Shown in pieces: positions 2,541 to 62,533 of a stretch of 64,000 bases of DNA (position 1 is the first letter of the stretch; each line of letters starts with the position of its first letter). A program made the translations under genes and the position numbers. Source of the stretch: Sipunculus nudus (Eukaryota > Annelida > Sipuncula > Golfingiida > Sipunculidae); NCBI GenBank assembly GCA_026874595.1, contig CM049307.1, forward strand, positions 73,138,643 through 73,202,642, given 5' to 3'. A model generated the notes under the pieces. That model was not told the DNA's origin. It saw nothing but the letters and a program-made list of their open reading frames with translations, and did no database searches.

Positions 2541-2575
2541 CTAGACGACCATAGGTCGAACGCTTGCCGGAAATC
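2541..2575 (-). repeat. HLE-D 3' terminus, copy 1
   Basis: On the minus strand the order is: arm GATTTCCGGCAAGC (2562-2575), hairpin CGACC/GGTCG with a 3-base loop (2546-2558), then CTAG (2541-2544) and a T-rich flank. This matches the Helitron 3' pattern of a hairpin followed by a CTRR end. Confidence 0.8.
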
Positions 2576-3673
2576 GGAAGTGAAACACAGACGGAGAGAC
2601 AGAACATATTGTTGGTTTTCTATTAATGGAATGACCCTCAGGGACATTGCTGAGAATATGTGGCCCGTAGAATGACATATGAGACAAAAGAACAGGCAAG
2701 CAGACAAAGCTGACAACAAAAGACGAACAGACAGACATACTGACTTTGTGAGACAAGATTGACACCAGATGACTTAACCTAGTTATGGAGAAGATTCAAA
2801 GGAAGAAAATGAGTTATAATTTATGTAATTTAGATTTTTAGTTTTGGAGGTATGGCGAATTAATGATATACTTGGGAGGCTCGACTGTAGTGCCCTCTGG
2901 CGGACATATTTCGAAGACGACAAATGCGTTTCGTATTATCAGTGTATGACATGAGATGTCCCAGTTTCAAAAGGATTCCGTCAAAGCTGTGGCCTGTAGA
3001 ATGCTATATGTAAGGCGTAAGAACCAGCAGGCAGGCGACTTTGAGGATAACGGACAAACAGATGGACACACTGACAAAGTGACAGAAGATTGAAACCAGA
3101 TGCCTTAATCAGGTTAAGGAGAAGACTCAAAGGAAGAAAATAAGCTAAAGTTTATGTAACTGAGGTTTTGGGTGTAGAGATATGGCTAATACAATGGTAT
3201 GTGTGTGATGGTCGTGTGCAGCGCCCACTAGTGGCCATATCCCTATAATGAAAAATTTATTTCTAGATATTAGTGTAAGACATAAGATGTAATAGTTTCA
3301 AAAGGATTCCGTCAAAACTGTGGCCTATAGAATGCTATATGTGAGACGCAAGAGCAAGCAGTCGAATTTCAGGACAACTGACAAACAGACGGACACAATG
3401 ACAAAGTGACACAACATTGAGACCAGATGACATCATCAGTTTATGGAGAAGACTCAGAGGGAAAAAATAAGCTATAGTTTATGTAATTGAGGCTTTGGGT
3501 TTTAGAGATATGGCCAATGTAATGATATGTGTGTGAGGGTCGTGTGCAGCGCCCCCTAGCAGCCATATTCAAAAAATGAAAAAACCATTTCGAGATACTA
3601 GTGTAGGACTTATGATATGTCAGTTTCAAAAAGATTCCTGCAATAATGTGGCCTTCGGCGCAAGATGAATGAA

Positions 3674-3738
3674 ATCTCGAAATATCTCTATTCACGAGAT
3701 ATTTTTCGAGATACTGCAAGACTTTTTATAAAATCTTG
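3674..3738. repeat. Double-hairpin block inside HLE-D (one of four)
   Basis: Two adjacent inverted repeats. The first has arms TCTCGAAATATCTC and GAGATATTTTTCGAGA. The second, at 3717-3738, runs CAAGACTTTTT to AAAATCTTG. Near copies sit at about 4790-4855, 6714-6783 and 7667-7733. They explain the repeated 92-codon minus-strand frames beginning near 3719, 4836, 6758 and 7712. Confidence 0.6.
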
Positions 3739-5249
3739 TAGTACTAGTTGAATGCTACCTGATGCAAAAAACTAGATCACTCTAGCTTTAAAACTGACAA
3801 AGTTACAAAAATTAGACCCCTTATTTTCGAATATCATGACTTTTCCCCAAAAAATTGTAACCATGGTTACGGCAAATTTGAGTCAGCTACACACCAGATG
3901 ACAGGCCTTGGAATGACGATTAAAATGAGCTATTGTTGAAGTAGATACGACTAATAGTCACAAAGATATGAAGAAAAAAACGTTTTGAGAAGTTTTGACG
4001 ACCTTGACCTTGACCTTTGACCTATTTTAACCAAAAACAATGGGGCACCTAGAAATTATGTTTTCCAACATCCCTGTAAGTTTCAAGGTTATTGTGGCAA
4101 AATTGTGGCCAGGAGAGTGGTGACAAACAAACAAACAAACAAGAACAAGCAAGTAGGCGAATTTGAGGACAACTGACAAACAGACGGACACACTGACAAA
4201 GTGACTCAAGACTGAGTCCAGATGACTACTCCAGATTATGGAGACGACTCAAAGGAAGAAAAAAGCTACAGTCTACTGAGGTTTATAGTTTTGGAGATAT
4301 TGCCAAAGCATGATATGTTGGGAGAGGTTCGAGTTCAGCGCCCCCTAGCGGCCATATCCGGAAAATGGAAAATTGGTTTCGAGATATTAGTGTAAGACTT
4401 AAGATGTAATAGTTTCAAAAGGATTCTTTCAAAACTGTAGCCTGTAGAATGCTATATGTGAGACGCAAGAGCAAGCAGTCGAATTTCAGGACAACTGACA
4501 AACAGACGGACACAATGACAAAGTGACACAACATTGAGACCAGATGACATCATCAGTTTATGGAGAAGACTCAGAGGGAAAAAATAAGCTATAGTTTATG
4601 TAATTGAGGCTTTGGGTTTTAGAGATATGGCCAATGTAATGATATGTGTGTGAGGTTCGTGTGCAGCGCCCCCTAGCAGCCATATTCAAAAAATGAAAAA
4701 AACATTTCGAGATACTAGTGTAGGACTTATGATATGTCAGTTTCAAAAAGATTCCTGCAATAATGTGGCCTTCGGCGCAAGATGAATGAAATCTCGAAAT
4801 ATCTCTATTCACGAGATATTTTTCGAGATACTGCAAGACTTTTTATAAAATCTTGTAGTACTAGTTGAATGCTACCTGATGCAAAAAACTAGATCACTCT
4901 AGCTTTAAAACTGACAAAGTTACAAAAATTAGACCCCTTATTTTCGAATATCATGACTTTTCCCCAAAAATTTGTTACCATGGTTACTTCAAATTTGAGT
5001 CAGCTACACATCAGATGACAGGCCAGGTGATGACGAAAAAAATGAGCTATTGCAGAAGTGGATAAGCCTATTTATGGCGAAGTTATAGTGCAAAAACCGT
5101 TAACCATACCTGTCGTGACCTTGACCTTTGACCTTTGACCTATTTTAACCAAAAACAATAGGGCACCTAGACATTATGTTTTTCATCATCCCTGTAAGTT
5201 TCAAGGTGATTGTGGCAAAATTGTGGCCAGGAGAGTGGTGACAAACAAA

Positions 5250-5284
5250 CTAGACGACCATAGGTCGAACGCTTGCCGGAAATC
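5250..5284 (-). repeat. HLE-D 3' terminus, internal copy 2
   Basis: Same arm, hairpin and CTAG as the outer terminus, lying 2709 bases away. It is followed on the minus strand, within the GTTTGTTTG run, directly by interior element sequence rather than by host DNA or a 5' hairpin. It therefore marks a unit junction inside the array. Confidence 0.8.
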
Positions 5285-8116
5285 AGAAGTGAAACACAGA
5301 CGGACAGACAGAACATATTGTCGGTTTTCTATTAATGGAATGACTATCAGGGACATTGCTGAGAATATGTGGCCTGTAGAAAGACATATGAGACAAAAGA
5401 ACAGGGAAGCAGACAAAGCTGACAACAAAAGACGAACAGACAGACATACTGACTTTGTGAGACAAGATTGACACCAGATGACTTTACCTAGTTATGGAGA
5501 AGATTCAAAGGAAGAAAATGAGTTATAATTTTTGTAATTTAGATTTATAGTTTTGGAGGTATGGCGAATTAATGATATACTTGGTAGGTTCTACTGTAGC
5601 GCCCTCTAGCAGACATATTCCGAAGACGACAAATGCGTTACGTATTATTAGTGTATGACATAAGATGTCCCAGTTTCAAAAGGATTCCGTCAAAGCTGTG
5701 GCCTGTAGAATGCTATATGTAAGGCGTTAGAACCAGCAAGCAGGCGACTTTGAGGATAACGTACAATCAGATGGACACACTGACAAAGTGACAGAAGATT
5801 GAAACCAGATGCCTTAATCAGGTTATGCAGAAGACTCAAAGGAAGAAAATAAGCTTTAGTTTATGTAACTGAGGCTTTGGGTTTAGAGATATGGCCAATA
5901 CATTGGTATGTGTGTGAGGGTCGTGGGCAGCGCCCACTTGTGGCCATATCCGGAAAATGAAAAATTTATTTTCTAGATCTTAGTGTAAGACATAAGGTGT
6001 AATAGTTTCAAAAGGATTTCATCAAAACTGTGGCCTATAGAATGCTATATGTGAGACGCAAGAACCAGCAAGCAGGCGAATTTTAGGACAACTGACAAAC
6101 AGACAGATACACTGACAAAGTGACTCAAGATTGAGTCCAGATGACTACTCCAGGTTATGAAGAAGACTCAAGAAGAAAAAAGCTACATTTTATGTAACTG
6201 AGGTTTATAGTTTTGGAGATATTGCCAAAGCATGATATGTTGGGAGAGGTTCGAGTTCAGCGCCCCCTAGCGGCCATATCCGGAAAATGGAAAATTTGTT
6301 TTGAGATATTAGTGTAAGACTTAAGATGTAATTGTTTCAAAAAGATTCTTTCAATACTGTGGCCTGTAGAATGCTATATGTGAGACGCAAGAGCAAGCAG
6401 GCGAATTTGAGGACAACTGACAAACAGACAGACACACTGACAAAGTGACACAACATTGAGACCAGATGACATTATCAGTTTATGGAGAAGACTCAGAGGG
6501 AAAAAATAAGCTATAGTTTATGTAATTGAGGCTTTGGGTTTTAGAGATATGGCCAATGTAATGATATCTGTGTGAGGGTTGTGTGCAGCGCCCCCTTGCA
6601 GCCATATTCAAAAAATGAAAAAACAATTTCGAGATACTAGTGTAGGACTTATGATTTGACAGTTTCAAAAAGGTTCCTGCAATAATGTGGCCTTTGACGC
6701 AAGATGAATGAAATCTCGAAATATCTCTATTCACGAGATATTTTACGAGATACTGCAAGACTTTTTTTTATGAAAACTTGTAGTACTAGTTGAATGCTAC
6801 CTGATGCAAAAAACTAGATCACTCTAGCTTTAAAACTGACAAAGTTGGAAATATAAGGCCCCTTATTTTCAAATATCATGACTTTCCCCCAAAATTCGTA
6901 ACCATGGTTACTGTAAATTTGAGTCAGCTACACACCAGATGACAGGCCTTGGAATGACGATTAAAATGAGCTATCGTTGAAGTAGATACGACTAATAGTC
7001 ACAAAGATATGAAGAAAAAAACGTTTTGAGAAGTTTTGACGACCTTGACCTTGACCTTTGACCTATTCTGACCAGAAACAAAAGGGCACCTAAAAATTAT
7101 GTTTTTCATCATCCCTGTAAGTTTCAAGGTTATTGTGGCAAAATTGTGGTCAGGAGAGTGATGACAAACATACAAACATTAAAGCATGATATGTTGGGAG
7201 AGGTTCGAGTTCAGCGCCCCCTAGCGGCCATATCCGGAAAATGAAAAATTGGTTTCGAGATATTAGTGTAAGACTTAAGATGTAATAGTTTCAAAAGGAT
7301 TCTTTCAAAACTGTGGCCTGTAGAATGCTATATGTGAGACGCAAGAGCAAGCAGGCGAATTTGAGGACAACTGACAAACAGACGGACACAATGACACAGT
7401 GACACAACATTGAGACCAGATGACATTATCAGTTTATGGAGAAGACTCAGAGGGAAAAAATAAGCTATAGTTTATGTAATTGAGGCTTTGGGTTTTAGAG
7501 ATATGGCCAATGTAATGATATCTGTGTGAGGGTCGTGTGCAGCGCCCCCTAGCAGCGATATTCAAAAAATGAAAAAACAATTTCGAGATACTAGTGTAGG
7601 ACTTATGATATGTCAGTTTCAAAAAGATTCCTGCAAAAATGTGGCTTTTGGCGCAAGATGAATAAAATCTCGAAATATCTCTATTCACGAGATATTTTAC
7701 GAGATACTGCAAGACTTGTAATAAAAACTTGTAGTACTAGTTGAATGCTACCTGATGCAAAAAACTAGATCACTCTAGCTTTAAAACTGACAAAGTTAGA
7801 AAAATAAGATCCCTTATTTTCAAATATCATGACTTTTCCCCCAAAAATTTGTAACCATGGTTACAGCAAATTTGAGTCAGCTACACACCAGATGACAGGC
7901 CTTGGAATGATGATTAAAATGAGCTATTGTTGAAGTTGATACGACTAATAGTCACAAAGATATAAAGAAAAAAACGTTTTGAGAAGTTTTGACGACCTTG
8001 ACCTTGACCTTTGACCTATTTTAATCAAAAACAATAGGGCACCTAGAAATTACGTTTTCGAACATCCCTGTAAGTTTCAAGGTTATTGTGGCAAAATTGT
8101 GGCCAGGAGAGTGGTG

Positions 8117-8128
8117 ACAAACAAACAA

Positions 8129-8167
<39 letters not shown>

Positions 8168-8289
8168 TACGCAACTGACCAATATGCTTGCCGAAATCTT
8201 TGATTCCGGCAAGCAACAAACAGACAAACAGACAAACAGACATACGCAACTGAGTAATATGCTTGCCGAAATCTTTGATTCCGGCAAGC
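8117..8289 (-). repeat. HLE-D 5' terminal hairpin module, duplicated, with tetranucleotide microsatellite
   Basis: Two hairpins at 8186-8214 and 8261-8289 have 13-base arms with one mismatch and a TTT loop. They are 75 bases apart and separated by ACAAACAG-type repeats. The (CAGA/CAAA)n run at 8117-8168 joins the module to the array. The module is the 5' end of HLE-D read on the minus strand. Confidence 0.75.
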
Positions 8290-8985: not shown

Positions 8986-11423
8986 ATCTTTAAAAACCCC
9001 AACCCATACCACTACAAAAGCCTCAATCCATACCACTACAAAAGCCTCAATCCATACCACTACAAAAGCCTCAATCCATACCACTACAAAGGCCTCAATC
9101 AATACCACTACAATGGCCTCAGTCAATACCACTACAAAGGCCTCAATCCACATCACTACAAATGCCTCAATCCATACCACTACAAAGGCCTTAATCTATA
9201 CCACTACAAGGGCCTCATTCCACACCACTACTAAAGCCGCAGTCCATACCACATCAAAGATCTGAATCCATACCACTAGAAAGGCCTCAATACATACCAC
9301 TACAAAGGCCTCAATCCAAACCACTACAAAGGCCTCAATCAATACCACTACAAAGGCCTCAATCCATACCACTACAAAGGCCTTAATCTATACCACTACA
9401 AGGGCCTCAGTTCATACCACTACAAAGGCCTTGATCCATTCAACTGCAAAGTCCTCAGAATCATACAACTTCAAAGGCCTCAATTCATACAACTACAAAG
9501 GCCTTAATCTATACCACTACAAGGCCCTCAGTTCATACCACTACAAAGGCCTTGATCCATTCAACTGCAAAGGCCTCAGACAATACAATTAATAAAGGCC
9601 TCAATCCATACCACTACAAAGGGCCTCAATTCATACCACTACAGAGGCCTCAATCCATACCATTACAATGGTCTCAAGCTATATCCCTACAAAGGCCTCA
9701 ATCCACACCACTACAAAGGCCTCAGTCCATACCACTACAAATGGCCTTAATCCATACCACTACAAAGGCCTCAATTCATACAAATACAAAGGCCTCAATC
9801 CACACCACTACAAAGGCCTCAGTCTATACCACTACAAAGGCCTCAATCCATACCACTACAATGGCCTCAATCCACACCACTACAGAGGCCTCAATCCACA
9901 CCACTACAAAGGCCTCAATCCACACCACTACAAAGGCCTCAATCCATACAACTACAAAGGCCTCAATCCACACCACTACAAAGGCCTTAATCCACACCAC
10001 TACAAAGGCCTCAATCCATACAACTACAAAGGCCTCAATCCATACAACTACAAAGGCCTCAATCCATACAACTACAAAGGCCTCAATCCATACAACTACA
10101 AAGGCCTCAATCCATACAACTACAAAGGCCTCAATCCATACCACTACAATGGCCTCAATCCATACAACTACAAAGGCCTCAATCCACACCACTACAAAGG
10201 CCTCAATCCACACCACTACAAAGGCCTCAATCCATACAACTACAAAGGCCTCAATCCACACCACTACAAAGGCCTCAATCCACACCACTACAAAGGACTC
10301 AATCCATACAACTACAAAGGCCTCAATCCATACAACTACAAAGGCCTCAATCCATACAACTACAAAGGCCTCAATCCATACAACTACAAAGGCCTCAATC
10401 AATACAACTACAAAGGCCTTAATCTATACCACTACAAGGGCCTCATTCCACACCACTACTAAAGCCGCAGTCCATACCACATCAAAGATCTGAATCCATA
10501 CCACTAGAAAGGCCTCAATACATACCACTACAAAGGCCTCAATCCAAACCACTACAAAGGCCTCAATCAATACCACTACAAAGGCCTCAATCCATACCAC
10601 TACAAAGGCCTTAATCTATACCACTACAAGGGCCTCAGTTCATACCACTACAAAGGCCTTGATCCATTCAACTGCAAAGGCCTCAGAATCATACAACTAC
10701 AAAGGCCTCAATCCATACAACTACAAAGGCCTCAATCCACACCACTACAAAGGCCTCAGTCTATACCACTACAAAGGCCTCAATCCATACCACTACAATG
10801 GCCTCAATCCACACCACTACAGAGGCCTCAATCCACACCACTACAAAGGCCTCAATCCACACCACTACAAAGGCCTCAATCCATACAACTACAAAGGCCT
10901 CAATCCACACCACTACAAAGGCCTTAATCCACACCACTACAAAGGCCTCAATCCATACAACTACAAAGGCCTCAATCCATACAACTACAAAGGCCTCAAT
11001 CCATACAACTACAAAGGCCTCAATCCATACAACTACAAAGGCCTCAATCCATACAACTACAAAGGCCTCAATCCATACCACTACAATGGCCTCAATCCAT
11101 ACAACTACAAAGGCCTCATTCCACACCACTACAAAGGCCTCAATCCACACCACTACAAAGGCCTCAATCCATACAACTACAAAGGCCTCAATCCACACCA
11201 CTACAAAGGCCTCAATCCACACCACTACAAAGGACTCAATCCATACAACTACAAAGGCCTCAATCCATACAACTACAAAGGCCTCAATCCATACAACTAC
11301 AAAGGCCTCAATCCATACAACTACAAAGGCCTCAATCCATACAACTACAAAGGCCTCAATCCATACAACTACAAAGGCCTCAATCCATACCACTACAAAG
11401 ACCTCAGTCTACACCACTATACT
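8986..11423. repeat. 24-bp minisatellite array of about 100 units, with StuI-like core
   Basis: The unit is 24 bp with core CTACAAAGGCCTCAATCC followed by a variable ATACCA, ACACCA or ATACAA part. Most units contain AGGCCT. The period is a multiple of three and the unit lacks stops in four of six frames, so long frames appear on both strands (NPYHYKGL, SIHTTTKA and VVVWIEAF octapeptides). That is a property of the repeat and not evidence of a protein. The array has an internal duplication. A block with the distinctive CCACATCAAAGATCTGAATCC variant at about 9213-9480 recurs at about 10441-10690, and about 9821-10440 recurs at about 10758-11390. Confidence 0.9.
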
Positions 11424-14265
11424 CCTGACGACGCGGGTATAACTTCAGTTGTTCTATATCTCCTTCGCCTAAACTGCTGCTTTGTCTAGGAAGTTTTCGG
11501 GTTTCGACACCAGGGCTGGCACAGGGCCAAGAATCAGACTAGAGAGAGCGGGATGTCGCGGGTTTAAAATTGAAGCTTGATGCACAATGCGATACCATGC
11601 TCTCATTGATCTGACTACATGTACAATATATAAGCTATTGAATTGCTATACAAAACAGCAGTTAACGCAGTTTACACAATCCTGAACATCTTAAGTACTA
11701 CCGGAATTCCTATTGCGTCTTTGATGTGCCACTGGTGATAGAATTTGGCGTTAATTTGACCATTTATGTAACGTAAATAATACCAATCTTTAACTCAGAC
11801 GACTTGATGAGTTATTATATCTTTAACATAGCAGATGTAATTCAAATATATCTGTATAAAAGCAGGCCCTTTGCCACTATATGCTGCAATATACAAAATG
11901 CGTATCAAGTATCAAAATAACAAAGTAACAAATTAGCTCATTAGTTCTAAAATAAAAGTGTGCATGATACAGAAGTATGATAGATATTTCTTGAATGACA
12001 TTAATGTAGCATGATTTTTACCATGTGGATTATTTTTCACAGTTTATTAAAACGTTTTATTTTTATCCGAAAACAACCATCATAGCATATGAAATAACCT
12101 TTCGCGTTTAAGGAAAAGTATCAGTGTCTTTTCTAGTTACGGGTTATTCCTTTCTGTGCTCTTTGTAATGAACATACTTGTTTGAAGTCGGAGAAATCTA
12201 TTGACTTACATTAGCAAAGTGGAGAATTGTCTTTAATTTGCGGCAAAACATGATCTGTCAATGAAGTCATATATGTAATTGCATTTTCACCTTAATATCT
12301 ATAGCAAAGGAATATATATGGGCGGCACAAACGCTAGGTACGCCGCTGCACTAACCCAGCTACAAACACAATTAAAGGTCAGTGCTACCATACACCACAA
12401 GCTGAGTATAATTATAGAAAGCAGTCGGGGGTGGAGGGAAATACATGTATGTGTTTTATCATGTCCTTTTTTCTTTTGATAAGAAGGTGAAAAGAAAACA
12501 CTAATGGGATTAAGAAATATGTGTTCTCTGCCAACATAATTACTTTATAATTAAACAAAGGTTCCTGTTGTCAGCTCTCCTTTCTCCTCGGCTTGTTCTC
12601 CTTTGCTTGACTGATTGTTGTTTACAGATTTCTTAGAAAAAATAATCTTTGAAATATTATTGGGGTTTTTTTTTGTTTTAAAATTTATTATAATACTTCG
12701 TGTAATCTTAATGTCAATACTTCTCTGGTCACCCCGGCGGAATGTGCCCGTTCCTCTACACTGTTATTTTCACCCTCGTAGTCATCCTGTAGTCAAGCCA
12801 ACCTTTGCGTACCGTATACACTGACACGACACCTCAGAAAACTGACTGTCAAGAAACTGAGTAAGGTAAATCCGATATTTGTCTGGCCGAAAATAACGTT
12901 CTCTGTGCTCTCTCCGTTTTAAAAGTGACTGCACATGTAATTTGAAACAATTAGTAAATTCATATAAGGCAAGAGGAAAAGATTCAACTTGCATGTTTTG
13001 GCTATAAGACACATTCAGACTGAATGCGTGAATGTAAAACTTTGGTCGGATACACAAAACAGAGCCTTATTTCAAGTTGACAAATTGATAGACTTTTCCT
13101 GTTAATTGCATAACTCTGTGTATATTAGTATAATGAAACCTTGCACCTTTTGTTTCAAACAATATTTGGTTATATCACTTTTCATATCAGACTTATCAGA
13201 CAAAACCATCCGTGACCAATACAATGACGTCATGGTAAAACGAAAACCGTTGTGGTTAAGATCTTGACTAGGGCGAAATGGTTACAAAGAGGCTTATTAA
13301 ATTGAAAGAATTGCATTTTCAAGAGTCCTTTAGTCTCTCATTGTTCTTTTGATTGAACACATTATGGTCAGCAGTATATTGAGACAACTCGGAGGTTTAT
13401 CAGGGATATTGTTGAGAATCAGCTGACTTGTTCGGTATTTCTGATCTGGTTGTTGCTCGTATTTGCACTTTATTTACATACAAGAGGCGTAACAAAACGC
13501 CAAGCAACTGGCTGTGACTTCAGTAATGTGGCTACAGATGTGCATCATATTATGTTGGAACTCTCGTTCAGTTAGATGTATACATAAATTAATAGATAGA
13601 TTGCAGCACATGACGGTGATTAAGATTTCCGTCTAATTTAAGGTTTTATGATCTTATTATAGCCTTAATTTAGGGAAACCTGTGCCGGGAGGACCCCAGT
13701 TAATCATTTATTTTCTTGCAGTGGATAACACCCACTATGATCTGTGGGCATACCAAATTAAAAAATCCCATGGATCCATTCATGAGAAATCAGGTTGACT
13801 AAATCTCATGCAGTTAATAATTACATTCCCTTGGCCTTGATTCTATGTGAAAATTACAATATATCAGCTAGTAGCAAACGGTTACTTCATCCTCTAGTTC
13901 GTGGGGTTATACATGTATTTGCGGGTTAATCCCCCGCGATTTTCACATTTCACTATTTTGAGAGAACTAAATTTTCGCGCTCTTATCATAGAGTATCATA
14001 CAAAGAGTTCATGAATGTCCATTGTTATACTAATTATCGAATATGTGCACTAAATCTTCATAATTTGGCGAGAACCTTGATGGTGTTGAAATTCATGAAG
14101 ATAATATAAATGATCTAACATTATTTACCATATTAATCCTTGGTTTACGGATTACATTTTTTTTCATTCAACGACGTTATGAATAACAGATTAAATGCGG
14201 ATGATGCTTTTGTATAAATGACTGTTCACCTCTGTAGATGTCACAAGACGATGGTTTTGTTTTCG
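11424..14265. other. Non-coding stretch, no gene recognised
   Basis: AT-rich sequence with short chance frames only. There is no recognised transposon end or RNA gene. The frame at 12782-13057 (minus, 91 codons) shows no familiar motif. Confidence 0.55.
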
Positions 14266-14670
14266 AGGTGTGTCATTTACGAGGGTTTTTATTTTCAAGG
14301 TGTCCTATTTACAAGGGTTTCACTTTCGAGGTGTCTTACTTATGATTATTTTATTTTCTAGGTGTCTTATTTACGAGGGTTTTATTTTCGAGGTGTCTTA
14401 TTTATTATTATTTTGTTTTCTAGGTGTCTTAATTACGAGGGTTTTATTTTCGAGGTGTCTTATTAATGATTATTTTATTTTCTAGGTGTCTTATTTAAGA
14501 GGGTTTTATTTTCTCAGTGTCTCATTTACGAGGGTTTTATTTTCAAGGTGTCTTATTTATGATTATTTTATTTTCTATGTGTCTTATTTACGAGAGATTT
14601 ATTTTCGAGGTGTCATATTTACGAGGGTTTTATTTTCGAGGTGTCTTATTTACGAGGGTTTTATTTCGCG
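14266..14670. repeat. 31-bp minisatellite
   Basis: Repeats of a 31-bp unit built on GTTTTATTTTCGAGGTGTC and TTATTTACGAGG. Several units alternate with a variant carrying GATTATTTTATTTTCTAGG, giving a roughly 62-bp dimeric pattern. The three overlapping plus-strand frames in 14270-14737 come from this repeat. Confidence 0.85.
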
Positions 14671-20470: not shown

Positions 20471-20631
20471 ATAAGCGGGAACCCTCAAGGTCAAAGGTAA
20501 AGGCAATGTTCGGGTGCGTGACCCGTTGTCATGTCAGTACACGTCATTCATAGTCAAGTGGGCTGCCCTAATGTATGTAACTATACCAGCTGGCCTGCGA
20601 CCGAACTTGCTCCCACAAAACAGATACAAAC

Positions 20632-23601: not shown

Positions 23602-26020
23602 TAGCTCAGCTGACTTTAAGTCATGCTGGGCTATAGCGATGGGTCTTTGTCCGTCGTCCTTCCGTCTGTCCGTCCGGCCGTTAGCAGGGCACAAATCGTA
23701 ACCGTAGGGGCTAGGGCCATGAACCCTATGCAGTCTTAGAGGTTATAAAAAGATCTCCTTGCAAACCTGAAATTAGGTCACTGCGACCTATATTCTCGAA
23801 GTTAAGGGGTGTGTTTGCATCCCCCAGAAATAACTCTTTGAGACAAAATTTTCATCCCAAACCTTCAATCTTTCACATACAGCTCACCTACCAACAGGGG
23901 AAGAACTATATTTTTTTTGAGGTCAAAAGGTCAAAGGTCAAGGTCACAGGAACCTCTTCTTTGAAAAGCCTGTGGATGCATTTTAAGCCAACCCTTTCAT
24001 CCCAATTCTTTGATCTTTCACATATAGCTCGCCTACTAAGTTGGAGAAGAATCCTATAGATTTTGAGGTCACAAGGTCAAAGGTCAGGGTCACAGGATCC
24101 ACTTCTTTGAAAAGGTTGTGGACACATTTCAAGCTAGACTTTTCATTCCAAACCTTCCAGCACTGATATCGCTTCTCTGCCAACAGGGGAAAAGACCTGT
24201 TGATTTTGAGGTTAAAGGTCAAGTTCACAGCACCCACTTCTTGCGTGGAGTCATTTTCAGGCAAACTTTTCAATCTGTACCTTCCATCTGTCATATATGG
24301 CTTACCTACCAATAAGAGAAGAAGCCCATTGATGTTGAGGTCAAAAAGTCAAAGGTCAAGGTCACAATATTTAATTGTTCTAAATGCTTGTGAGCATATT
24401 TCAAGTGTAACTGTTCAACCCAAACCTTCAGTCTTTCACATATGCCACATCTATGCATCACTCAGTTTGACTCAAACTTCATATTTATGGGTCTTTTTGC
24501 TTGAATAAATAACTTATTGATTTTAGGGTCAGCTGGTCAGCAGGTTAAAGGTTGCAGGTCAAAGTTATTCACCCATTGGTTGCCAAGTAATTACACCAGA
24601 TTTAAGTGGTTAGTAGTTACCCATCATTTAGAAAGAATCCAGTTGATATGTGGGCAAAAGGCCAAGGTCATAGGTCAGGGATGTTCACAATTACTTATTT
24701 TATAGACCATCTCTATTTTTCTTGTATATATAACCATCCCACTCCAGCTGGTACATCTCCCTGTGTGGCTGTAATTGTGAGTGACACTGGTGACATATGA
24801 CTCCCTTTTGTATCAGCCTATTAAGTGATAAGGCTGAGTGATAAGTACCTCGTTACTTCATAACAAACACACTGTTGTCGGAATGCTTCAGCCAGGCATT
24901 AAGACTATGAGAGTATAGTATTAAGGTTTAGGTACTGATTTATAAGATGATGGGAACATTTTGCAGTTTATTTTATGGAATCCTAGCAATAAACTTAGTT
25001 TCCTAGATATCTGAATAATTTTATATATATCACCACATATAAAAGCAAGTGTTTGTTCTCATAATATGTGGATGTGTACCTTGATTTAGGATGGCTTTTT
25101 GTTTTATTTCAAGACTCTTAGTCATGCTTTCTGCATTTCTTTTCTTTCAGGTTTGGCAGTTTACTTACCCTGCTGACCCCATAGAAAAGCAGAGTGATAA
25201 TAAAAAATATTTGACTTACACTTTTTACAATTGCATATCTATAAATCTGATATGAGGGCCTGGACATGCCTTTTGAATTATTTTGGGCATTCATTACTGG
25301 ATAATTTGCCCCAAGTTTGGTCTCTTATTGGAGATTGTGAGATATCAAATGTCATACTTGTCAGAAATCCATTATATCTGCCAGTTAGCCACCTTAGAAA
25401 TTCTTTCTTCAGTGCAGTTTCAGTAATTTTTCTTTAATGTTTGGTCCAATTTAGAGAATGTTTGTTGTCTGATTTCAGACTTGTCAGAAGTCCAATATGG
25501 CCACCAGGCAACCATCTTTTAATTCCTTTTGATCATATTATCTCAAGAACAGTTAAAGTGAATGCAGTTGGATGTATATTTATGTAATCTTGTAAAGGAT
25601 TGGGTCAAATATTTCTGAATAAATATTACCATCATTTATAAAAGTGCAGTACAGTTGGCTTGTATTGAATAAAGTTCATACAGAAGCACCTGTTTCTCAA
25701 TAATTCTTGCATGTATTTCCTTGATTTTTGCTATATATTTTGATCTTATATTTGCCCTTTGTGGTGTTCCTTTTGAGACTGACAGGTTTCAAGCAAGCTG
25801 TTGGAATAGTTCCTGATAGCTTAACAATCATGCATTTTCCTCAGACCATCAATTCACTGTGTTTTAACCAGACATAGGTGATATATATTTCTGTTGTCAT
25901 AGAAAATTATCAACAAATTGGCAAATTGGTTCTTCAAAATTTGACTGGAAGTTGTGAATCTCAGTCCATGTGTCACAGGTCATGCTTGGCAGCTGAGCGT
26001 CATGACCCATGGGTCACTTG
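23602..26020 (+). mobile_element. HLE-A: large non-autonomous Helitron-like element
   Basis: The 5' end is a hairpin at 23602-23633 (arms TAGCTCAGCTGACTT and AAGTCATGCTGGGCTA), followed by GTCC/TTCC-rich repeats resembling the ACGG microsatellite of molluscan 'pearl' elements. The proposed 3' end carries the arm copy CAGCTGAGC (25990-25998), a perfect TGACCC-AT-GGGTCA hairpin (26003-26016), then CTTG and TTT. The first kilobase holds about six degenerate units of roughly 120-150 bp built around AGGTCAAAGGTCAAGGTCACAGG-like words, with CTTTCACATA(T)AGCTC between them. The 1.2 kb middle part (24.7-25.95 kb) has no recognised gene. Joining the two ends as one element is inference from matching termini. 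Confidence 0.65.
23902..24690 (+). repeat. AGGTCA half-site-rich tandem core of HLE-A
   Basis: Clusters of AGGTCA in direct repeat with 0, 1 or 2 base spacing occur near 23920-23948, 24066-24092, 24210-24225, 24338-24366, 24525-24565 and 24655-24680. Several include TCAAGGTCA, the extended half-site bound by FTZ-F1/ERR-type nuclear receptors. The words are part of the transposon unit. Binding in vivo is not shown. Confidence 0.6.
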
Positions 26021-36723: not shown

Positions 36724-38962
36724 ATGCCCCCGCCACAAAGTGGCCGGGGCATATAGTTTTACCCATGTCCGTCATTCCGTCCTTCCGTCATTCCGAAATC
36801 AAACAGTTGTACGGACTTTTTTTCGCAATGCCTGCAGATATTGGCCTGATTTTTGGTGTGTGGGCAGATATAGACCAGTTACAGATCGAGTTCGCGTTTC
36901 GTCCCGGTTGACCTACTTTTGACCGTTTTACGGCTCCTAAACTTAGAAAATTTTTTGAAAAATAGAAATTCCATGACAAATACACATGTACGGACTTTTT
37001 TTCGCAATGCCTGCAGATATTGGCCTGATTTTTGGTGTGTGGGCAGATATAGACCAGTTACAGATCGAGTTAACGTTTCGTCCCGGTTGACCTACTTTTG
37101 ACCGTTTTACGGCTCCTAAACTTAGAAAATTTCATGAAAAATAGAAATTTCATGACAAATACACATGTACGGACTTTTTTTCGCAATGCCTGCAGATATT
37201 GGCCTGATTTTTGGTGTGTTGGCAGATAATGACCAGTTACAGATCGAGTTCGCGTTTCTTCCCAGTTGACCTACTTTTGACTGTTTTACGGCTCCTAAAC
37301 TTAGAAAATTTCATGAAAAATAGAAATTGTCATGACAAATGCACATGTACGGACTTTTTTTCGCAATGCCTGCAGATATTGGCTTGATTTTTTGTGTGTG
37401 GGCAGATAATGACCAGTTACAGATCGAGTTCGCGTTTTGTCCCAGTTGACCTACTTTTAACCATTTGACGGTGCTCTAACATAGAAAATTTCATAAAAAA
37501 GTGCACATGCATAGACTTTTTTTTCGCAGTGCCTGCAGATACGGGCCTGATTTTTTGTGTGTAGGCAGATATTGACCAGTTACAGATCGAGTTCTTGTTT
37601 TGTCCCAGTTGACCTACTTTTGACCATTTGACTGCTCCTGAACATAGAAAGTTTCATGAAAAATAGAAATTTTCATAACAAATGCATATGTACTGACTTT
37701 TTTTCGCAATGCCTGCAGATATTGGCCTGATTTTTGGTGTGTGGGCAGATATAGACCAGTTACAGATCGAGTTAACGTTTCGTCCCGGTTGACCTACTTT
37801 TGACCGTTTTACGGCTCCTAAACTTAGAAAATTTTTTGAAAAATAGAAATTCCATGACAAATACACATGTACGGACTTTTTTTCGCAATGCCTGCAGATA
37901 TTGGCCTGATTTTTGGTGTGTGGGCAGATATAGACCAGTTACAGATCGAGTTAACGTTTCGTCCCGGTTGACCTACTTTTGACCGTTTTACGGCTCCTAA
38001 ACTTAGAAAATTTCATGAAAAATAGAAATTTCATGACAAATACACATGTACGGACTTTTTTTCGCAATGCCTGCAGATATTGGCCTGATTTTTGGTGTGT
38101 TGGCAGATAATGACCAGTTACAGATCGAGTTCGCGTTTCTTCCCAGTTGACCTACTTTTGACTGTTTTACGGCTCCTAAACTTAGAAAATTTCATGAAAA
38201 ATAGAAATTGTCATGACAAATGCACATGTACGGACTTTTTTTCGCAATGCCTGCAGATATTGGCTTGATTTTTTGTGTGTGGGCAGATAATGACCAGTTA
38301 CAGATCGAGTTCGCGTTTTGTCCCAGTTGACCTACTTTTAACCATTTGACGGTGCTCTAACATAGAAAATTTCATAAAAAAGTGCACATGCATAGACTTT
38401 TTTTTCGCAGTGCCTGCAGATACGGGCCTGATTTTTTGTGTGTAGGCAGATATTGACCAGTTACAGATCGAGTTCTTGTTTTGTCCCAGTTGACCTACTT
38501 TTGACCATTTGACTGCTCCTGAACATAGAAAGTTTCATGAAAAATAGAAATTTTCATAACAAATGCATATGTACTGACTTTTTTCCTCAGTGCCTGCAGA
38601 TACCCCCCTGATTTTTTATGTGTGGCCAGATAATGACAGTTACAGATCAAGTTCGCGTTTTGTCCCGGTTGACCTACTTTTCATTGTTTTACGGCTCCTA
38701 AACTTAGAAAACTTTATGAAAGACGGAAATTTTTATGGAAAATGCACATGTATGGACTTTTTTTCACAATGCCTGCATATACTGGCATGATTTTTGGTGT
38801 GTTGCTTGATAATGACCCGTTACAGATCGAGTTTGCATTTTGCCCTTGTTGACCTACTTTTGACCATACGACACCTCCTGAACTTAAAAAATTTTTCCAA
38901 ATTTTCCAAATGTTTCATATTTGCCCAAGGCGGGGGCATTCGTGTCGTTCCGACACATCTAG
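36724..38962 (+). mobile_element. HLE-B: complete non-autonomous Helitron-like element, nested
   Basis: The 5' end is a hairpin at 36724-36752 (ATGCCCC, GCCAC, loop AAA, GTGGC, GGGGCAT with one mismatch), followed by a GTCCGTCATTCC-type stretch. The 3' end has GGCGGGGGCAT (38929-38939), a perfect 11-base complement of the first arm, then a GTGTCG-TTC-CGACAC hairpin and CTAG (38959-38962) before TTTATCCCC. The flanks TTTTAAACAACATTTTT and TATCCCCAACC join into a normal host repeat unit (compare about 23978-24010). The core is about 12 tandem units of roughly 177 bp. No protein is encoded; the 60-78 codon frames here are repeat products. Confidence 0.8.
36813..38790 (+). repeat. Roughly 177-bp tandem core of HLE-B with five-unit higher order
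   Basis: Units start with CGGACTTTTTTTCGCAATGC and include GACCAGTTACAGATCGAG and TTGACCTACTTTTGACC. Starts recur near 36813, 36991, 37168, 37348, 37514, 37694 and onward. A block of five units recurs almost unchanged 881 bases downstream (36919-37690 against 37800-38571), so a multi-unit segment was duplicated recently. Confidence 0.85.
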
Positions 38963-45811: not shown

Positions 45812-46059
45812 TATAATACCTCCAAGGGAGAGGGAAAGCTCAAAAGGGGTTTCCAAAATGTCAACATTAAGGAACACTTAAATAATGTGATTTTGTTAAG
45901 AAAAATTTGATTCAATAAGACGGCTGTGTCAATCTCCCGTCTTCACCCACTTTACGTGGGGGTTATCTGGAGCCATATTCTCCCTATATAGGACAAGTTC
46001 TTATCTTATTGACGCAAATACCAATGCTAGACCTCTCGGGATTGTTTATAAAGTCTTTC

Positions 46060-46086
46060 AACTGAGCGTCATGACCCGGGAGTCGC
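46060..46086 (+). mobile_element. Solo HLE-A 3' terminus
   Basis: The sequence AACTGAGCGTCATGACCC and then GGGAGTCGCCC with a T run repeats the 3' end seen at 25990-26020 (arm copy plus TGACCC...GGGTCA-type hairpin). No 5' end was seen upstream, so this is a remnant. Confidence 0.5.
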
Positions 46087-46329
46087 CCTTTTTTTAGCTG
46101 TAAATGTTAAATTTTGTAACGGTGTCCGCAGTTGCTCTGAAGAACTGGCTCGGTCAATTGTCTTCATTATTGCATGATTACAATGATATATGTGCATATG
46201 ATGCAAAATGTTTTAGTTTAAGGGGTTGAGAGCAGAAAACTTTCTGACGTCTGATTTTCTAAGTGCTAAAAACACACAAAAACACGCGTAACTCGCAAAA
46301 TACAGGTCATATAACATAGGCAAAGTATT

Positions 46330-47639: not shown

Positions 47640-48350
47640 GTGTTACCTTAGTTATGTGTTGGGTAAGTTGACTTCATGGTAACACTTGATGTATGGACTT
47701 CATGGTAACACTTGGTGTATGTACTTCATGGTTACACTTGGTGTACGGACTTTATGGTAACACTTGGTGTATGGACTTCATGGTAACACTTGGTGTATGG
47801 TCTTCATGGTAACACTTGGTGTATGGACTTCATGGCAACACTTGGTGTATGGACTTCATTGTAACACGGTGTATGGACTTCATGGTAACACTTGGTGTAC
47901 GGACTTTATGGTAACACTTGGTGTATGGACTTCATGGCAACACTTGGTGTATGAACTTCATGGTAACACGTTGTATGGACTTCATGGTTACACTTGGTGT
48001 ACGGACTTCATGATAACACTTGGTGTATGAACTTCATGGTAACACTTGGTTATGGACTTCATGGTAACACTTGGTGTGTGGACTTCATGGCAACACTTGG
48101 TGTATGGACTTCATGGTAACACTTGGCGTATGGACTTCATGGCAACACTTGGTGTATGGACTTCATGGTGACACTTGGCGTATGGACTTCATGGTAACAC
48201 TTGGGGTATGGACTTCATGGTAACACTTGGCGTATGAACTTCATGCATGATAACACATGATGTACGGACTTCATGGTAACACTTGGTGTATGGACTTCAT
48301 GGTAACACTTGGTGTACGGACTTCATGGTAACACTTGGTGTATGGACTGC
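47640..48350. repeat. 26-bp minisatellite
   Basis: About 27 units of a 26-bp repeat (GGACTTCATGGTAACAC then TTGGTGTAT). Variants with GGCAACAC and lost bases are scattered, and no frame stays open for long because 26 is not a multiple of three. It begins gradually and ends sharply at CTGCTTTTATCAGCG. Confidence 0.9.
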
Positions 48351-53490: not shown

Positions 53491-53496
53491 GACTAA

Positions 53497-55674: not shown

Positions 55675-55711
<37 letters not shown>

Positions 55712-56693: not shown

Positions 56694-58132
56694 CAAGTGA
56701 CCCATGGGCCATGACGCTCAGCTGACTATATAAACATTCTCAAAAGGAATTTTATCATCTGATTGCCAAATTTTGTATTTTGTATTTTTAAATTCAACTG
56801 AAGCTTAGCTCTGAGGATATGGGTAACAGAGACCTAATTTCAGGATTCCTAGGAGATTGTTCATTTACCTCCATGGATGTCAAGATAGAAGATTCAAGGT
56901 CCAATGGTTACGATTTGTGCCCTGTTAACAGACAACCACATCTTTGAAGGTATTAAAAATATGATAAAAAATGCGTAAAATTAAAAAAAAAATGCAGGTG
57001 GCACCACCATTCTGCAGAAACTGATGAAACATTCCATGACCAATATCTATGCAAAGAATCATGGTGATCAATGCATTAGTTATTCAGATATACTGGAGCA
57101 TTTGTATCAAATTTTTAGTTATTCTGTGGGAGGTTTTTTTTTTTTTGGTGGAGGTAACCGCCTCCATTTTTTAATGCTGACTTAACTAATTCTTAACTAA
57201 GTATGTAAATCTGCAGAGTTTCCATTTCGGTTTGGGACTACTTGACAGGGCGGTAGCACTCGCTTCCTATCATTTTTTTATATCCTGGTGTCAACCAGGC
57301 CCGGTGTCTACCGCACCTGCGGGTCCTGATGTGTAATCATCCCCATTGCTGGGTCATAACACCCCAAAGACGCACTCGTATGTGAGTGATACACGGCTGT
57401 AGGGCACAGCCTTCCTATTAAGCCTACAGAGCGCTCACCCTGGGTGGGGGCCGACCGTGAAAAACCACACCGCCTCGGCTGAGATTCGTACCCACGATCT
57501 CCCGGCTTTGAGTCCTGCACTGTACCTCTGAGCCACAGGAGCCGGTCCTGTGGGTGGTACTTCTGTGCCATATAGCTCGGAGGAAATGGGTAACAGAAAC
57601 CTTATATAAGTTTTCTAAGAAGACATTTCATGGGCCTCCCTGCATATTAAGAAAGAAAATTATAGGTCCAGTCGTTAGGATTTGTGTCCTGTTAACAGAT
57701 GACTGCATCTTAAGATATCTCAAAAATAGAGAAAAAATGGGTAAAAATCGAAAAAATACAAGTGGCGCCACCAGGCTGCAGAAACTGATGAAACACTTCA
57801 TGATCAGTATCCATGCAAAGAATCATGAAGATCAATGCATTAGTTGTTCAGATACTTGAGCTTTTGTATCAAATTTTCCATTATTCTGGAGGGGGTGGGG
57901 GGGGGGGGGGGTTCTTCGGAGCCTCATAGCCCGAAGAATATGGGTAACAGAGACCTAATTTTAGGTTTCCAAGGAGATTTTTCATGGACCTCCCTGGGTG
58001 TCAAGTTAGAAGATTCCAGGTCCAGTGGTTACGATTTGTGCCTGGTTAACGGACAGGCGGACAGACAAACGGACGACGGACAGAGTGCAGCATGATCGCT
58101 ATAGCTCAGATGAATTTCAGTCAGCTGAGCTA
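56694..58132 (-). mobile_element. HLE-A: complete copy interrupted by a SINE
   Basis: On the minus strand the 5' hairpin is at 58102-58132 (TAGCTCAGCTGA against TCATCTGAGCTA), followed by CGGACGACGGACAGAG-type repeats. The 3' end has the arm TCAGCTGAGC (56716-56725), a TGGCCCATGGGTCA hairpin (56698-56711), CTTG and TTT. The core has three similar units (about 56800-57160, 57577-57905 and 57925-58080) with GGGTAACAGAGACCTAAT, GGTTACGATTTGTGCC and ATACAAGTGGCGCCACCAG. The SINE at 57265-57545 lies between the first two. No protein is encoded. Confidence 0.8.
57265..57545 (-). mobile_element. tRNA-derived SINE inside HLE-A
   Basis: Minus-strand box A TGGCTCAGAGGTA (57523-57535) and box B GGGTACGAATCTC (57481-57493) are 29 bases apart and close to the RNA polymerase III consensus. 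The body includes CGGCCCCCACCCAGGGTGAG and the 3' domain GTGCGGTAGACACCGGGCC shared with the SINE at 39.6 kb. It ends in an A-rich tail (GATATAAAAAAATGA). The tRNA-like part is not a full tRNA gene. The target duplication is not clear. Confidence 0.8.
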
Positions 58133-58355: not shown

Positions 58356-58422
<67 letters not shown>

Positions 58423-61400
58423 AATAGCAAACCATTTCAGGGCATGCTATGCATGGGAGTATTACAAAACTGAGAGACGATGAAATTTGTATTTTCTGTG
58501 CATGTTCTTGGAATAATTGTGAAGTTTTTTTTTTGCAAATTGAAAAAAATAAACAGGACATTAATATAACAAGGATCCTTATTAAGACGAAATAAAATAA
58601 TCACATATAAACATATTGTTAAATGCCTTTTCCTATATTTCACTGTTAAATGGCGGCTTGCCTGGGAACCTGTGTTTTGAAAGAAGGGTAAATATTCACT
58701 TGCGGTCGTTTATTGTAGTCCACAGATCGTGAAAAGAACACCGACTCTGATTACCGTCACATACACAAACCACGGTGATGACGTAGACGGCATACAGGTT
58801 TTTCTTTTTGTGTTTTGGTTCTTGCTGTTTCAGCCTTTCCCTTTTGGCGCCAAGACCCCTGTATGCTTAGTCTGTTGAACAATGGTATACTCTCCCCTTG
58901 CGGGAGTTAATACCTCTGTAATGAATACCTCCCTGTTGCCTATATAATGGCTCCTCGGGCTGTAAATATGTGCTTCTCGGGGATTTCAGGAAAGCCGCGA
59001 TACAGGGATGAACTCAATGAGTAGCGTTAGCCGAACCAGACTTTGTGTTACCATACTCCGTCAGTGACACATGATCATTCCAGTTGGTGCCTGGAATATA
59101 ATCTTCAGGATCACATCCGTACCTTCTAACAGAAAGTTAAGTTAACCCCTATAAAAATAAAAATATTTCTTTTCTTTTCACTTCCTTCCCCGAATCAAAA
59201 CAATAATTGTAACTCTACAACTGTACGTGTCACATTTAACGTTTAGGAATGCAACAGCTATAAGTGTAAATATTAATGTACAGTTACTTAATTGGTCCCC
59301 ACGACCGCCTTTTTGACAACACCTCATGGCCTACAAATACGCTGTTACTTGATATAAACTAGATCAATCGTTAGCTTTTTAAAGTATACTTTCTAAAAAA
59401 ACCTACCATTCTGACCGAATGAATACAAGCATGGCTCGAGTTACTGGACGATACGGGAAATGACTCGTTACCATAGAAATGGATTTTTCAATTTGTTTCA
59501 TGAGTTCACATGTATTCTTTTGTATTAAATCATCACTCGTAGTCTAATGTTAAGAATATCGGTTGTTTAGAAATAAATCAACGCAATACGTTCACCCGTA
59601 CGGCTTGTATCAGGACTCGAGTCAGGCTAACAAGTCCAATATAAATTGTGTAATCACGGCTCAACTGAAACAAACAAATAGATGTTATGTATTCATATTA
59701 ATCAGTTTGCTGACTGACAATTGACGCACTGAGACTCCTTTCACAGGATTTTACAATAATTTATCCTATGAACATGAATAACTTAAATTATGGTTTCGCT
59801 CATGCTAAACACATTTAATTAAATATTTCGTGTTATTTAGCCATACCAGTGAGAACAAAACAATATAAATGACTCAAATCGTAGAATAAATGTTCTCAAT
59901 GTAACTGCTATATGTTTCATATGTGCTATATTCAATATGAATTAAGCTCAATATTCTCTTTCAGTAAACAAGACTCAATATAGAAACTTGAAAGAGTGAA
60001 CATAGAGGAACTGATAATTTCTAAACCTGTTGGCACAGATATTGTTGACTTTTGACAGTGCTTTATGGTTTGTCAACACATCTGTTAAAATGTCGCTATA
60101 GGAACTCTGCATGGCAAATATATGAAAGTGCTTGACAGTGTACGTTCTATATTAATTAAACTAATAACAGCTGTGACTGGGGCACCGGAAAACAGAGCCA
60201 GGGCAAGGCCATGGAACGGTCACTGAGTGCAAATCGAACACATGTATGCAGGAACCGGAAGTAGGTTCATACGGTACAGCCAAAGATACCCAGATGAAAG
60301 AGCGGCTGTATGTACTAAAACCAATTATCCTAGCAGGATCAACCAGTAAATAGCGTTCTTTCTATGTCACCCAGTAATCAATAATCTCACGTAATGCGTT
60401 CAGTATCAGTTTTCCACGATCAAATATACGTAAAACAGTTATGTTTTATGTGGGAATTTACTGTGAACTGATATGGTGCAGTGGAATCCATTTGCGGGTT
60501 TATACAGTTTTAAGTATACTTTTATTTTGCAAATGTAAATATTATTGCTATTCGTTAGGATTGTATATGCTTTAACTCCGTTCGTCTGGGTGGATGTGTG
60601 TGTTACAACATAACGAACACATTCAGGAACGGAATCTCGTGGAATTTTCAGGACATTTCGGGAACGGGCCAAAGGAGAATGGATAAGATTTGATGATGTG
60701 GATCCGGCACGTGACGAGGAACATCATCAAGGGATATTCATAATGTAAAATCACTTATGCACAATGAACCTCGAAGATGGGCCTAATAAGTGAAAGCAAA
60801 CACGGGTTGGGGAGCATCCTACATTACCCCCCCCCCCCCCACACACACACACATGGCGGAGACTTGCATTCCTTAGAATGCAGCTTTCTAGTTTCCCATA
60901 ATTCATGCAAAGTAGCAGGAATAATATATTATACACATTATTGAATATGCACGACCTCTTGTATCCTCTCCCTTTCATAGGATGGAAAAGGAAGTGAGAG
61001 ATATTCACCTTTTCAAAACAAAATAATTACCCCGGATAACGCTCAGATTACTATGCAAGGCAGAAACCTACCAAATACTAACAACCCTCAGGAGCATAAC
61101 GTTTCCATGGAGACGAGTAGGAGGGGCTTAAATGTCATTCCGTGCACGTGGTTTATTAGTGTTTACTGGGGGCTCGGTACTTATCCAGGTCAGTTGGGCA
61201 TTTACCAAATTATCCTGAACCCTTTTACGGAGACACAGTGCCGCAACCGTGGAAAAGGCATGCATAGAGTTCAGACGGTACTCTACTGCATCATTTAAGC
61301 ATGTACGATAAACAGATTAGGTCAACAGCAGGTCTTACCTAGTGGCGAGAACATTATATGCACAATATTCAGGTGAATATTAGTAAGTTTCCCTTTAAAT

Positions 61401-62145
61401 CCAGATATTCACCTACCTTTTCTATAGAATATATGTAATTTCTGGCTTACACTTCGTACATGTCAATAAACGCCATTAAGTTCCTCTTAAGAGCGCTTGT
61501 TGAACTACAAGCTGTTTCTAAACATAGCAAACAGAAAACCATGTAACTGAAGATTGTTAGTTATATATGTGCGGAAGATGAAAGGTCACTAGATGAGCTT
61601 AAAACGCCCTTTACAAAACTCCGGTTTGTCTGATTTGCCGAAAGATGTCTTTATTGAATGTTAATGTATTTGCGGGTCCCCACATGTTAAAACACGTGGG
61701 TATAAACAAAAGAAACAGCCTGTGTGCGATAGAATTGGCGTTATCTATTCTACTTATATTAAAGGTTTAATGGAGTAATCGGAGTAGCTCCTCCAGAACG
61801 TAAATATATCAGATTGGTGAAATCACGCAGTAAAAACACATCTGTATTCTTCCCTGTCATGTGACGATATCACGTGATGTGCAGATAAGACAGGTGGCTT
61901 AGGAATTTATTTCCGCAGATGTACAGGTGAACCCAGCTTACTAATCTCTGAAAGGGCATTATCTGATCGTTGTATCGCCTGCATTAGTGCTTTAGCTTCA
62001 CGTCGTGTACTCTTTAGAAAGCAGTTTAGGCTAACCAGCTGAAATCAGACCTGTGTGTGAAAAGAAAATCAAGATCTCAAGTGAAACCCGGAATTCCTTT
62101 CACATTTACGGGTTCAATTTTTGCCAGGTTTTATTAAGCCCTTAA
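58133..62145. other. Non-coding stretch with (TA)n and C run
   Basis: No gene recognised. It contains (TA)n at 58362-58419 and a C run followed by (AC)n at 60828-60853. Short frames (60439-60672, 60751-61008, 61053-61298) show no motif. Confidence 0.5.
58362..58419. repeat. (TA)n microsatellite
   Basis: About 29 TA dinucleotides. The Tyr-Ile repeats on both strands are artefacts. Confidence 0.95.
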
Positions 62146-62533
62146 CAAGAGACCCATGGTTCATTATTCTGCGATGTCTTGCATAACATTTTAACTTTGC
62201 CTTCGCAACCGAAATCTTATCATTTAAGAAATAGAAAAATATAGGTTGCACCAACAGGCTTTATCAACAGATGAAATTTTCCATGCATTAATTATTGAGA
62301 TACTGGAGCTTTTGTATCAAATTTAAATTATTCTCGGGTGTACAAACAAGGGCCATAACTCGGAGGATATAGGTCGCAATCACCTAATAACAAGCTTTAA
62401 AGGATATGGGCCTCCATGGATATTCAGTTAGAAGTTTCTAGTTCTGGAGGTTATGATTTGTGCCGTGCTAACGGACGGGAGGTCAACGGACACAAGGCGA
62501 TCGCTATACCTTAGCTTTACATCAGCTGAGCTA
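62146..62533 (-). mobile_element. HLE-A: short deletion derivative
   Basis: The 5' end on the minus strand is TAGCTCAGCTGA (62522-62533) after TTTTATT. The core has a single unit (ATATAGGTTGCACCAACAGG, GAGATACTGGAGC, GGTTATGATTTGTGCC and CGGACGGGAGG). The 3' end is a decayed ACCCATGGT-centred hairpin with CTTG (62146-62149) and TT. At 388 bp it is far shorter than the copies at 56.7 and 23.6 kb. The 3' arm copy is eroded. Confidence 0.7.

Follow-up and report, generated by a model that had tools for sequence, protein, structure and literature searches.

Four families of repeats in a window of the Sipunculus nudus genome (GCA_026874595.1, contig CM049307.1; G000:C2:73138643-73202642) share one ordered terminal design, and very probably represent four families of Helentron-associated interspersed elements (HINEs). 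These are non-coding rolling-circle transposons, which here would be mobilized in trans by the Rep/helicases of Helentrons at other places in the genome. The window, by which we mean the whole stretch of 64,000 nucleotides that was analyzed, is part of a eukaryotic chromosome in a genome of 1.4265 Gb and 153 contigs. The shared terminal design of the families, called A, B, C, and D, is confirmed.

Each family is represented in the window. On the plus strand, A1 (23602..26020) has a 5' hairpin (23602-23633), a GTCC-type microsatellite, an array of 146-bp units (23850-24157), a 3' repeat plus hairpin (25990-26016), and a CTTG end. Element B (36724..38962, plus strand) has a 5' hairpin (36724-36752), a TCCG microsatellite, an array of 179-bp units (36808-38894), a 3' repeat plus hairpin (38929-38958), and a CTAG end, and C1 (41280..42983, plus strand) has a 5' hairpin (41280-41310), a GCC-rich stretch, an array of ∼254-279-bp units, a 3' repeat plus hairpin (42939-42979), and a CTAG end. 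On the minus strand, an outer D (2541..8289) consists of 8289-8215 plus 5249-2541 and has its CTAG end at 2541, while an inner D (5250..8214) has its CTAG end at 5250. The four pairs of ends proposed in the first-pass annotation, eight stretches in all, are read letter for letter. For D, that annotation had paired 8261-8289 with 2541-2575; the ends stand, and the span between them proves to hold two D elements, one nested in the other.

The order of parts is the same throughout. The 5' hairpin begins 0–1 nt from the element end, and the core opens with repeats of GTCC/TTCC type in A and B, with GCC-rich ones in C, and with GTCT/GTTT in D. At the 3' end, the complement of the outer 5' arm is followed by a short hairpin and by CTAG (B, C, and D) or CTTG (A), with TT outside. 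After the flanking T's, the 5' ends of the families read TAG, ATG, GTA, and GCT. A short palindrome stands between the 3' subterminal inverted repeat (subTIR) and the 3' end in A1, A2, B, C1, and both D elements, and all of these have TT on both flanks, as expected of the T-T insertion that had been proposed.

To gauge chance, the window was scanned on both strands with a rule requiring a hairpin arm of 9 nt with a distal complement, a stem no shorter than 5 bp, and CT[AT]G, with TT flanking either side; the rule was drawn up once the elements had been seen, and family sequences were not used in it. The scan finds 6 distinct 3' ends, whereas 200 shuffles that preserve dinucleotides average 0.13 and never exceed 1. 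Two of the 6 belong to the D locus, and one (42290, inside C1) is probably a chance partial match. The complete element A2 (56694..58132, minus strand) comes from this blind scan, and A1 escapes it because its 5' hairpin carries more than one flaw. When TT flanks are not demanded, the scan recovers B, C1, both D ends, and the complete A2, and the other matches look like chance.

For B, C, and D, the proposed ends are also the ends of homology. When the inner D is aligned with the outer one, 50-nt flanks included, 2,498 of 2,714 columns (92.0%) are identical, and the similarity breaks off at the start of the hairpin and at CTAG plus T's. Among 8 fetched B loci, 4 have both standard ends by scan (the window copy L003, plus L006, L007, and L009), and a further one (L004) has both ends with a 3' repeat one base short. 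For C, TT and differing flanks precede the hairpin in 10 of 10 loci fetched from 42 places (one being the window copy), and the 3' end is in view in 3 of these 10.

An empty site is available for B only, which interrupts an older array with similarity to the A core. When its flanks are joined, 6 stretches of array at other places in the window align with them across the junction at 62–72% identity, and we take these as paralogous empty sites. They show B to extend from its hairpin to CTAG. At this one testable site in the window, the target is T-rich and no duplication is found beyond extra T's, so the longer fixed target duplication that would have spoken for another class of transposon is absent there. 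The elements could alternatively be cut-and-paste transposons or miniature inverted-repeat transposable elements (MITEs) with subterminal repeats, given that the 3' repeat copies the 5' arm in inverted orientation. However, the 3' repeat is subterminal and followed by a hairpin and CTAG/CTTG, such that inverted repeats do not stand at both very ends, and the B site has no target duplication beyond T's; such an origin is extremely improbable.

A genome-wide search with terminal patterns, as had been suggested, reveals that the families are numerous. Exact matches to the 5'-end patterns number 29,588 for A, 3,108 for B, 42 for C, and 1,132 for D, and the A 3'-end pattern has 4,218; the patterns are unequal in strictness, and these counts are not comparable among families or ends. 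Every reversed control pattern, that of the A 3' end included, returns 0 matches. In viral contigs, the A pattern has no match, and the 2 matches of the B pattern were discarded, as neither extends into B sequence.

HINEs are defined by subTIRs of 11–15 bp, of which the 5' copy lies at the 5' end or close to it. In A–D the subTIRs are 9–14 bp long, with the shared repeat of A (9–10 bp) falling slightly below that range, and a microsatellite and/or tandem core is found. The anatomy follows the same order of parts as HINEs at large, including the 11 Cg_HINE elements of Crassostrea gigas, which have a 5' subTIR, a complementary inverted repeat, a GTCY-type microsatellite, a tandem core, a 3' subTIR, and a palindrome (PMC7492417). 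These also insert at TT in T-rich targets with no target duplication, have no autonomous partner tied to them in that account, and include a group 3 whose members lack common sequence. By contrast, their terminal sequences differ from those of A–D as far as seen, and the available text of that source does not describe hairpin interruption, stacking, or shared orientation.

Similarly, DINE-1/INE-1 of Drosophila has 13-bp subTIRs, a partial or interrupted inverted repeat, a GTCY microsatellite, variable central repeats, a 3' stem-loop of changing sequence, and TT insertion, with three types of different subTIRs in D. willistoni (PMC2374699). Its terminal sequences are different, and it is mostly present as one type per species, whereas at least four families occur in the one genome studied here. 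HINEs and Helentrons of a mite, a mosquito, and flies share with A–D the subTIRs, the 3' palindrome, T-rich targets without target modification, and variable terminal T's; partners with the same ends were found there (PMC4067079), whereas none was found for A–D in the 14.6 kb searched. Canonical Helitrons (5' TC, 3' CTRR, insertion between A and T) do not fit: the 5' ends of A–D begin otherwise and the target is TT, with only the 3' CTAG of B, C, and D in common.

Under the rule that members of a family share at least 11 identical bp of subTIR (PMC4067079), A, B, C, and D are separate families. Unrelated HINE families in one genome, with the partner unidentified, have already been reported in the oyster (PMC7492417), and therefore the central idea is not new. 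The HINE kind is known, and A–D add new families to it, one with tens of thousands of copies.

The genome also holds candidate sources of the machinery. A search for the Helitron-like Rep domain PF14214 yields 143 matches in the genome (150 candidates scored). Among 30 loci that were read, the Rep motif is RGSPH in 26, RGWPH in 1, and RGLPH (Helitron-like) in 1, and 2 have none of these. The serine in RGSPH is given as a Helentron mark (PMC4067079), and Helentron-type Rep genes are thus present in the same genome as A–D. At a distance of 4.4 kb from one B copy, which is complete in itself, there is a Rep open reading frame (ORF) of 1,658 aa. A B-type end for the Rep element at C7:71187300-71192274 was considered and rejected, given that the nearby B copy begins with a 5' end of its own at 71196657; a relaxed hairpin search of that 14.6-kb stretch likewise yields no ends for the Rep element. 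None of the elements in the window fully encloses a long ORF.

Four observations weigh against the HINE assignment. Family A terminates in CTTG and not CTAG. The genome profile search places no PF14214 match inside the window. No Rep element with A–D ends, which the earlier proposal had suggested looking for, was found in the one 14.6-kb stretch beside a Rep gene that was searched. Lastly, the empty site of B is a paralogous one, about 30–38% diverged, with 8 T's around B and 4 in the cleaner empty units, and the exact count of T's gained is unsure.

When the ends are folded with DNA parameters (the program counts G.T as a pair), the 5' hairpin is broken at pair 8–9 in the main form of all four families, and the 3' repeat pairs through that point. 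The main genome form of A has 8 bp, a C.T mismatch, 5 bp, and a 3-nt loop. In the window, A1 has 9 bp, a bulged T, 5 bp, and a 3-nt loop, and A2 has 8 bp, a mismatch, 3 bp, and a larger loop. For B, the hairpin has 7 bp, a C.C mismatch, 5 bp, and a 3-nt loop; for C1, 8 bp, two unpaired nucleotides on one side, 5 bp, and a 3-nt loop; and for D, 13 positions with G.T at the ninth and a 3-nt loop. In 6 of 6 forms, the 5' arm as a bare duplex, leaving out the intramolecular nature of the hairpin, is more stable with the 3' repeat than with the inner arm, the difference ranging from 0.6 to 4.2 kcal/mol.

Among the matches listed, an uninterrupted inner arm is seen in none of 100 A 5' ends (of 29,588), of which five have a bulged T in place of the mismatch and one is truncated. 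All 100 A 3' repeats listed (of 4,218) have the pairing G at the open position. Similarly, none of the 100 B 5' ends listed (of 3,108) is uninterrupted, and these are nearly uniform. The search patterns for C and D fixed the interruption, and their counts do not test it; one D subfamily (L044, L058) has a perfect stem. As copies are related by descent, the weight of the pattern is that of four families and not of thousands of copies.

A similar interruption is found in the 5' hairpin of DINE-1. Its inverted repeat has already been termed partial or interrupted (PMC2374699), and both pairings, i.e. that at the 5' inverted repeat and that of subterminal inverted repeat with subterminal inverted repeat, have been noted (PMC4344730). 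In the bacterial repetitive extragenic palindromic (REP), IS608, and ISDra2 hairpins, mismatches or unpaired bases in the middle of the stem are contacted by HUH enzymes, and Escherichia coli REP loses activity or is impaired once its stem is made regular (PMC8266576). The likeness to REP and IS200/IS605 is an analogy only, limited to this contacted irregularity and, for IS200/IS605, to an orientation that follows replication (PMC8266576, PMC5371812); these systems are prokaryotic, with smaller elements and other enzymes, and no membership is claimed. The interruption offers a testable rule on an imperfect 5' hairpin opposed to a perfect 3' repeat, for which we found no earlier description.

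How one genome would serve four such families can be read in two ways. The first-pass annotation supposed that a single Rep, or a small number of them, would recognize the fold and not the sequence and so serve all four families, which is plausible but somewhat doubtful. A near-single hairpin shape in four unrelated sequences points that way, as does the regional orientation shared by A and B (see below), which users of one machinery might show. However, no Rep partner is linked to A–D ends, and the genome has several Rep lineages (at least three motif types in 30 loci), such that one per family is possible. Alternatively, each family may be served by its own Helentron lineage reading end sequence plus fold, with the shared anatomy due to descent and constraint and not to one permissive enzyme. 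The variety of Rep motifs would suit this second scenario, and so would the near invariance of ends within a family (e.g. the open position of the A 3' repeats and the B 5' ends listed above), but a family-specific Rep partner is likewise not found, and we see its chances as evenly balanced.

Nesting of D within D is not restricted to the window (8289-8185 and 5250) and recurs among loci L042–L067. In the window, the outer D has a GTTT microsatellite directly after its 5' hairpin, and the inner D (8214 to 5250) is nested at a TT of this microsatellite, which resumes past the inner CTAG. The D 5' ends among the matches listed (30 of 1,132) represent 25 separate places, and 11 of these have stacks, i.e. 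two to four D-like 5' hairpins in series, 51–108 bp apart. Inner junctions read TTTGTT in 15 of 17 cases, and the outer microsatellite follows wherever an inner 3' end can be seen (window 5250, L051, and L064/L065). Plain duplication of the 5' end was rejected as the source of the 75-bp repeat in D, given that the inner 3' end borders the outer microsatellite, likewise in L051 and L064. The stacks may reflect either repeated self-insertion or the spread of composites, and nesting of this kind is one route by which such elements build composite and tandem DNA.

In 4 of the 25 D places (L041, L054, L059, and L062), a common upstream sequence ending in CTAG plus TT or TTTGTT stands directly before the D 5' end. 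This could represent insertion right behind the 3' end of another element, or the spread of a composite.

Along 0.1–28 Mb of contig C1, the sequence-unrelated families A and B share a strand over tens of kilobases, and the sign changes along the contig. All orientation counts refer to the matches listed. For example, A 5' ends are on the minus strand in 72 of 73 cases at 0.10–1.17 Mb, and the next 9 (1.25–1.47 Mb) are all on the plus strand; B is on the minus strand in 9 of 9 cases up to 1.03 Mb and on the plus strand at 1.24 Mb. Pairs were formed between 100 of 4,218 A 3' ends and 100 of 3,108 B 5' ends, all on contig C1. Members of a pair are on the same strand in 6/7 cases at <5 kb, 13/13 at 5–20 kb, 32/39 at 20–60 kb, and 51/76 at 60–150 kb, and at longer range in 136/233 at 150–400 kb and 722/1,433 at 1–3 Mb. 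Within 150 kb, 102 of 135 pairs agree, a level matched by none of 99 label rotations. Because pairs overlap, we also counted each A only one time, and agreement within 60 kb is then 23 of 28 (P = 0.0009). With the first 3 Mb left out, the signal is weaker, at 18/23 within 60 kb (P = 0.011) and 23/35 within 150 kb (P = 0.09).

Other repeats give a mixed picture. A short interspersed element (SINE)-like repeat, for which the genome has 788 exact pattern matches, was used as a control. Within 150 kb, it is on the same strand as A and B in 14 of 36 pairs and as its own neighbors in 3 of 8, but this control is sparse (72 of the 100 matches listed are on contig C1, 16 of these below 25 Mb). Family D agrees within 150 kb with A 3' ends in 9/23 pairs, with B in 16/19, and with A 5' ends in 107/131, the last all from the first 2.3 Mb, and therefore D does not decide on shared orientation. 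Regional T/A skew as the sole cause was set aside, as it reaches only ∼2% in window segments and was judged too small.

The shared orientation may well have an ordinary cause, e.g. one-way selection relative to long genes, duplicated large segments carrying both families, or B being aimed by oriented T-runs in older elements, and we lean slightly toward this. The densest one-sided region sits at the start of a contig, the signal weakens once each A is counted once and the first 3 Mb are removed, and D agrees poorly with A 3' ends. On the other hand, two sequence-unrelated families agree at 5–150 kb, a distance that exceeds every element in length, and the sign changes many times along 25 Mb; the SINE-like control, sparse as it is, does not share the orientation. 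Replication-coupled single-strand insertion would also fit, with other causes possible. In bacteria, IS200/IS605 orientation tracks the direction of replication (PMC5371812), and we found no report on Helitron orientation and replication in the portions available of the open-licence literature. The pattern offers a testable rule on why unrelated families point one way over tens to hundreds of kilobases, of which we found no earlier description.

In the HINE reading, which we hold to be very probable, the displaced single strand would fold the interrupted hairpin at its 5' end, and an HUH Rep would probably read this hairpin for strand and nick position. The 3' repeat could pair with the same 5' arm through the interruption and so bring the ends together, and the 3' hairpin would mark the stop ahead of CTAG/CTTG. 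Insertion would occur at TT in T-runs with no long target duplication, T-runs inside other copies included, and would yield nested stacks and spread tandem cores. The anatomy, the ends, the copy numbers, one empty site, the nesting, and the presence of Helentron-type Rep genes are observed here, and from these the rolling-circle mechanism, the reading of the hairpin by Rep, and the mobilization in trans are inferred.

Taken jointly, the hairpin and the orientation suggest a further, tentative model, which we consider rather unlikely to hold as a whole. Helentron-type elements would insert as single strands at replication forks. The fixed interruption 8–9 pairs from the 5' nick would mark the strand and cleavage point for the HUH Rep, similar to the mid-stem irregularities in REP and IS200/IS605 hairpins, and the 3' repeat would compete for the same arm by pairing through it. 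Under this model, unrelated families would share regional orientation because the target strand follows fork direction. If so, Helentron insertion would be a eukaryotic counterpart of IS200/IS605, and thousands of old HINE insertions would record fork direction as a fossil map of replication in an animal genome.

The window contains further elements and repeats. A3 (62146..62533, minus strand) is short and decayed, with a degenerate 3' repeat and CTTG then TT retained. An old C-like element that hosts B, C2 (35451..39337, plus strand), has a 5' hairpin (35451-35473), an array split by B, and a probable 3' end at 39311-39337 (CTAG); its ends were assigned by eye. An A-like 3' end on the plus strand (46059..46095) has no recognized 5' end, and beside it an array like the C core (46330-47250, with GGCGCCACC words) lacks clear C ends. 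An A-like word, TAGCTCAGC at 34246, was rejected as an end, since the outside T-run and the following microsatellite are both absent. Minisatellite arrays with 24–32-bp units lie at 9000-11419, 14248-14666, 30481-31194, 34283-34991, and 47670-48348; for HINE ends, their flanks were covered by the blind scan.

The SINE-like repeat has two copies in the window, at 39592-39748 and at 57364-57517, the second as an insert in A2. Rfam and tRNA scans of the window return no match. Away from the arrays and from most of the element bodies, the window has 96 ORFs of 70 aa or longer, and a Pfam search with 10 of these gives a sole match, which lies outside the elements: a single-exon ORF of 213 aa on the plus strand (20581-21219) with a ubiquitin-conjugating enzyme domain (PF00179, E = 1.9e-37). 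We take this ORF to be close to UBE2H, and possibly a retrocopy.

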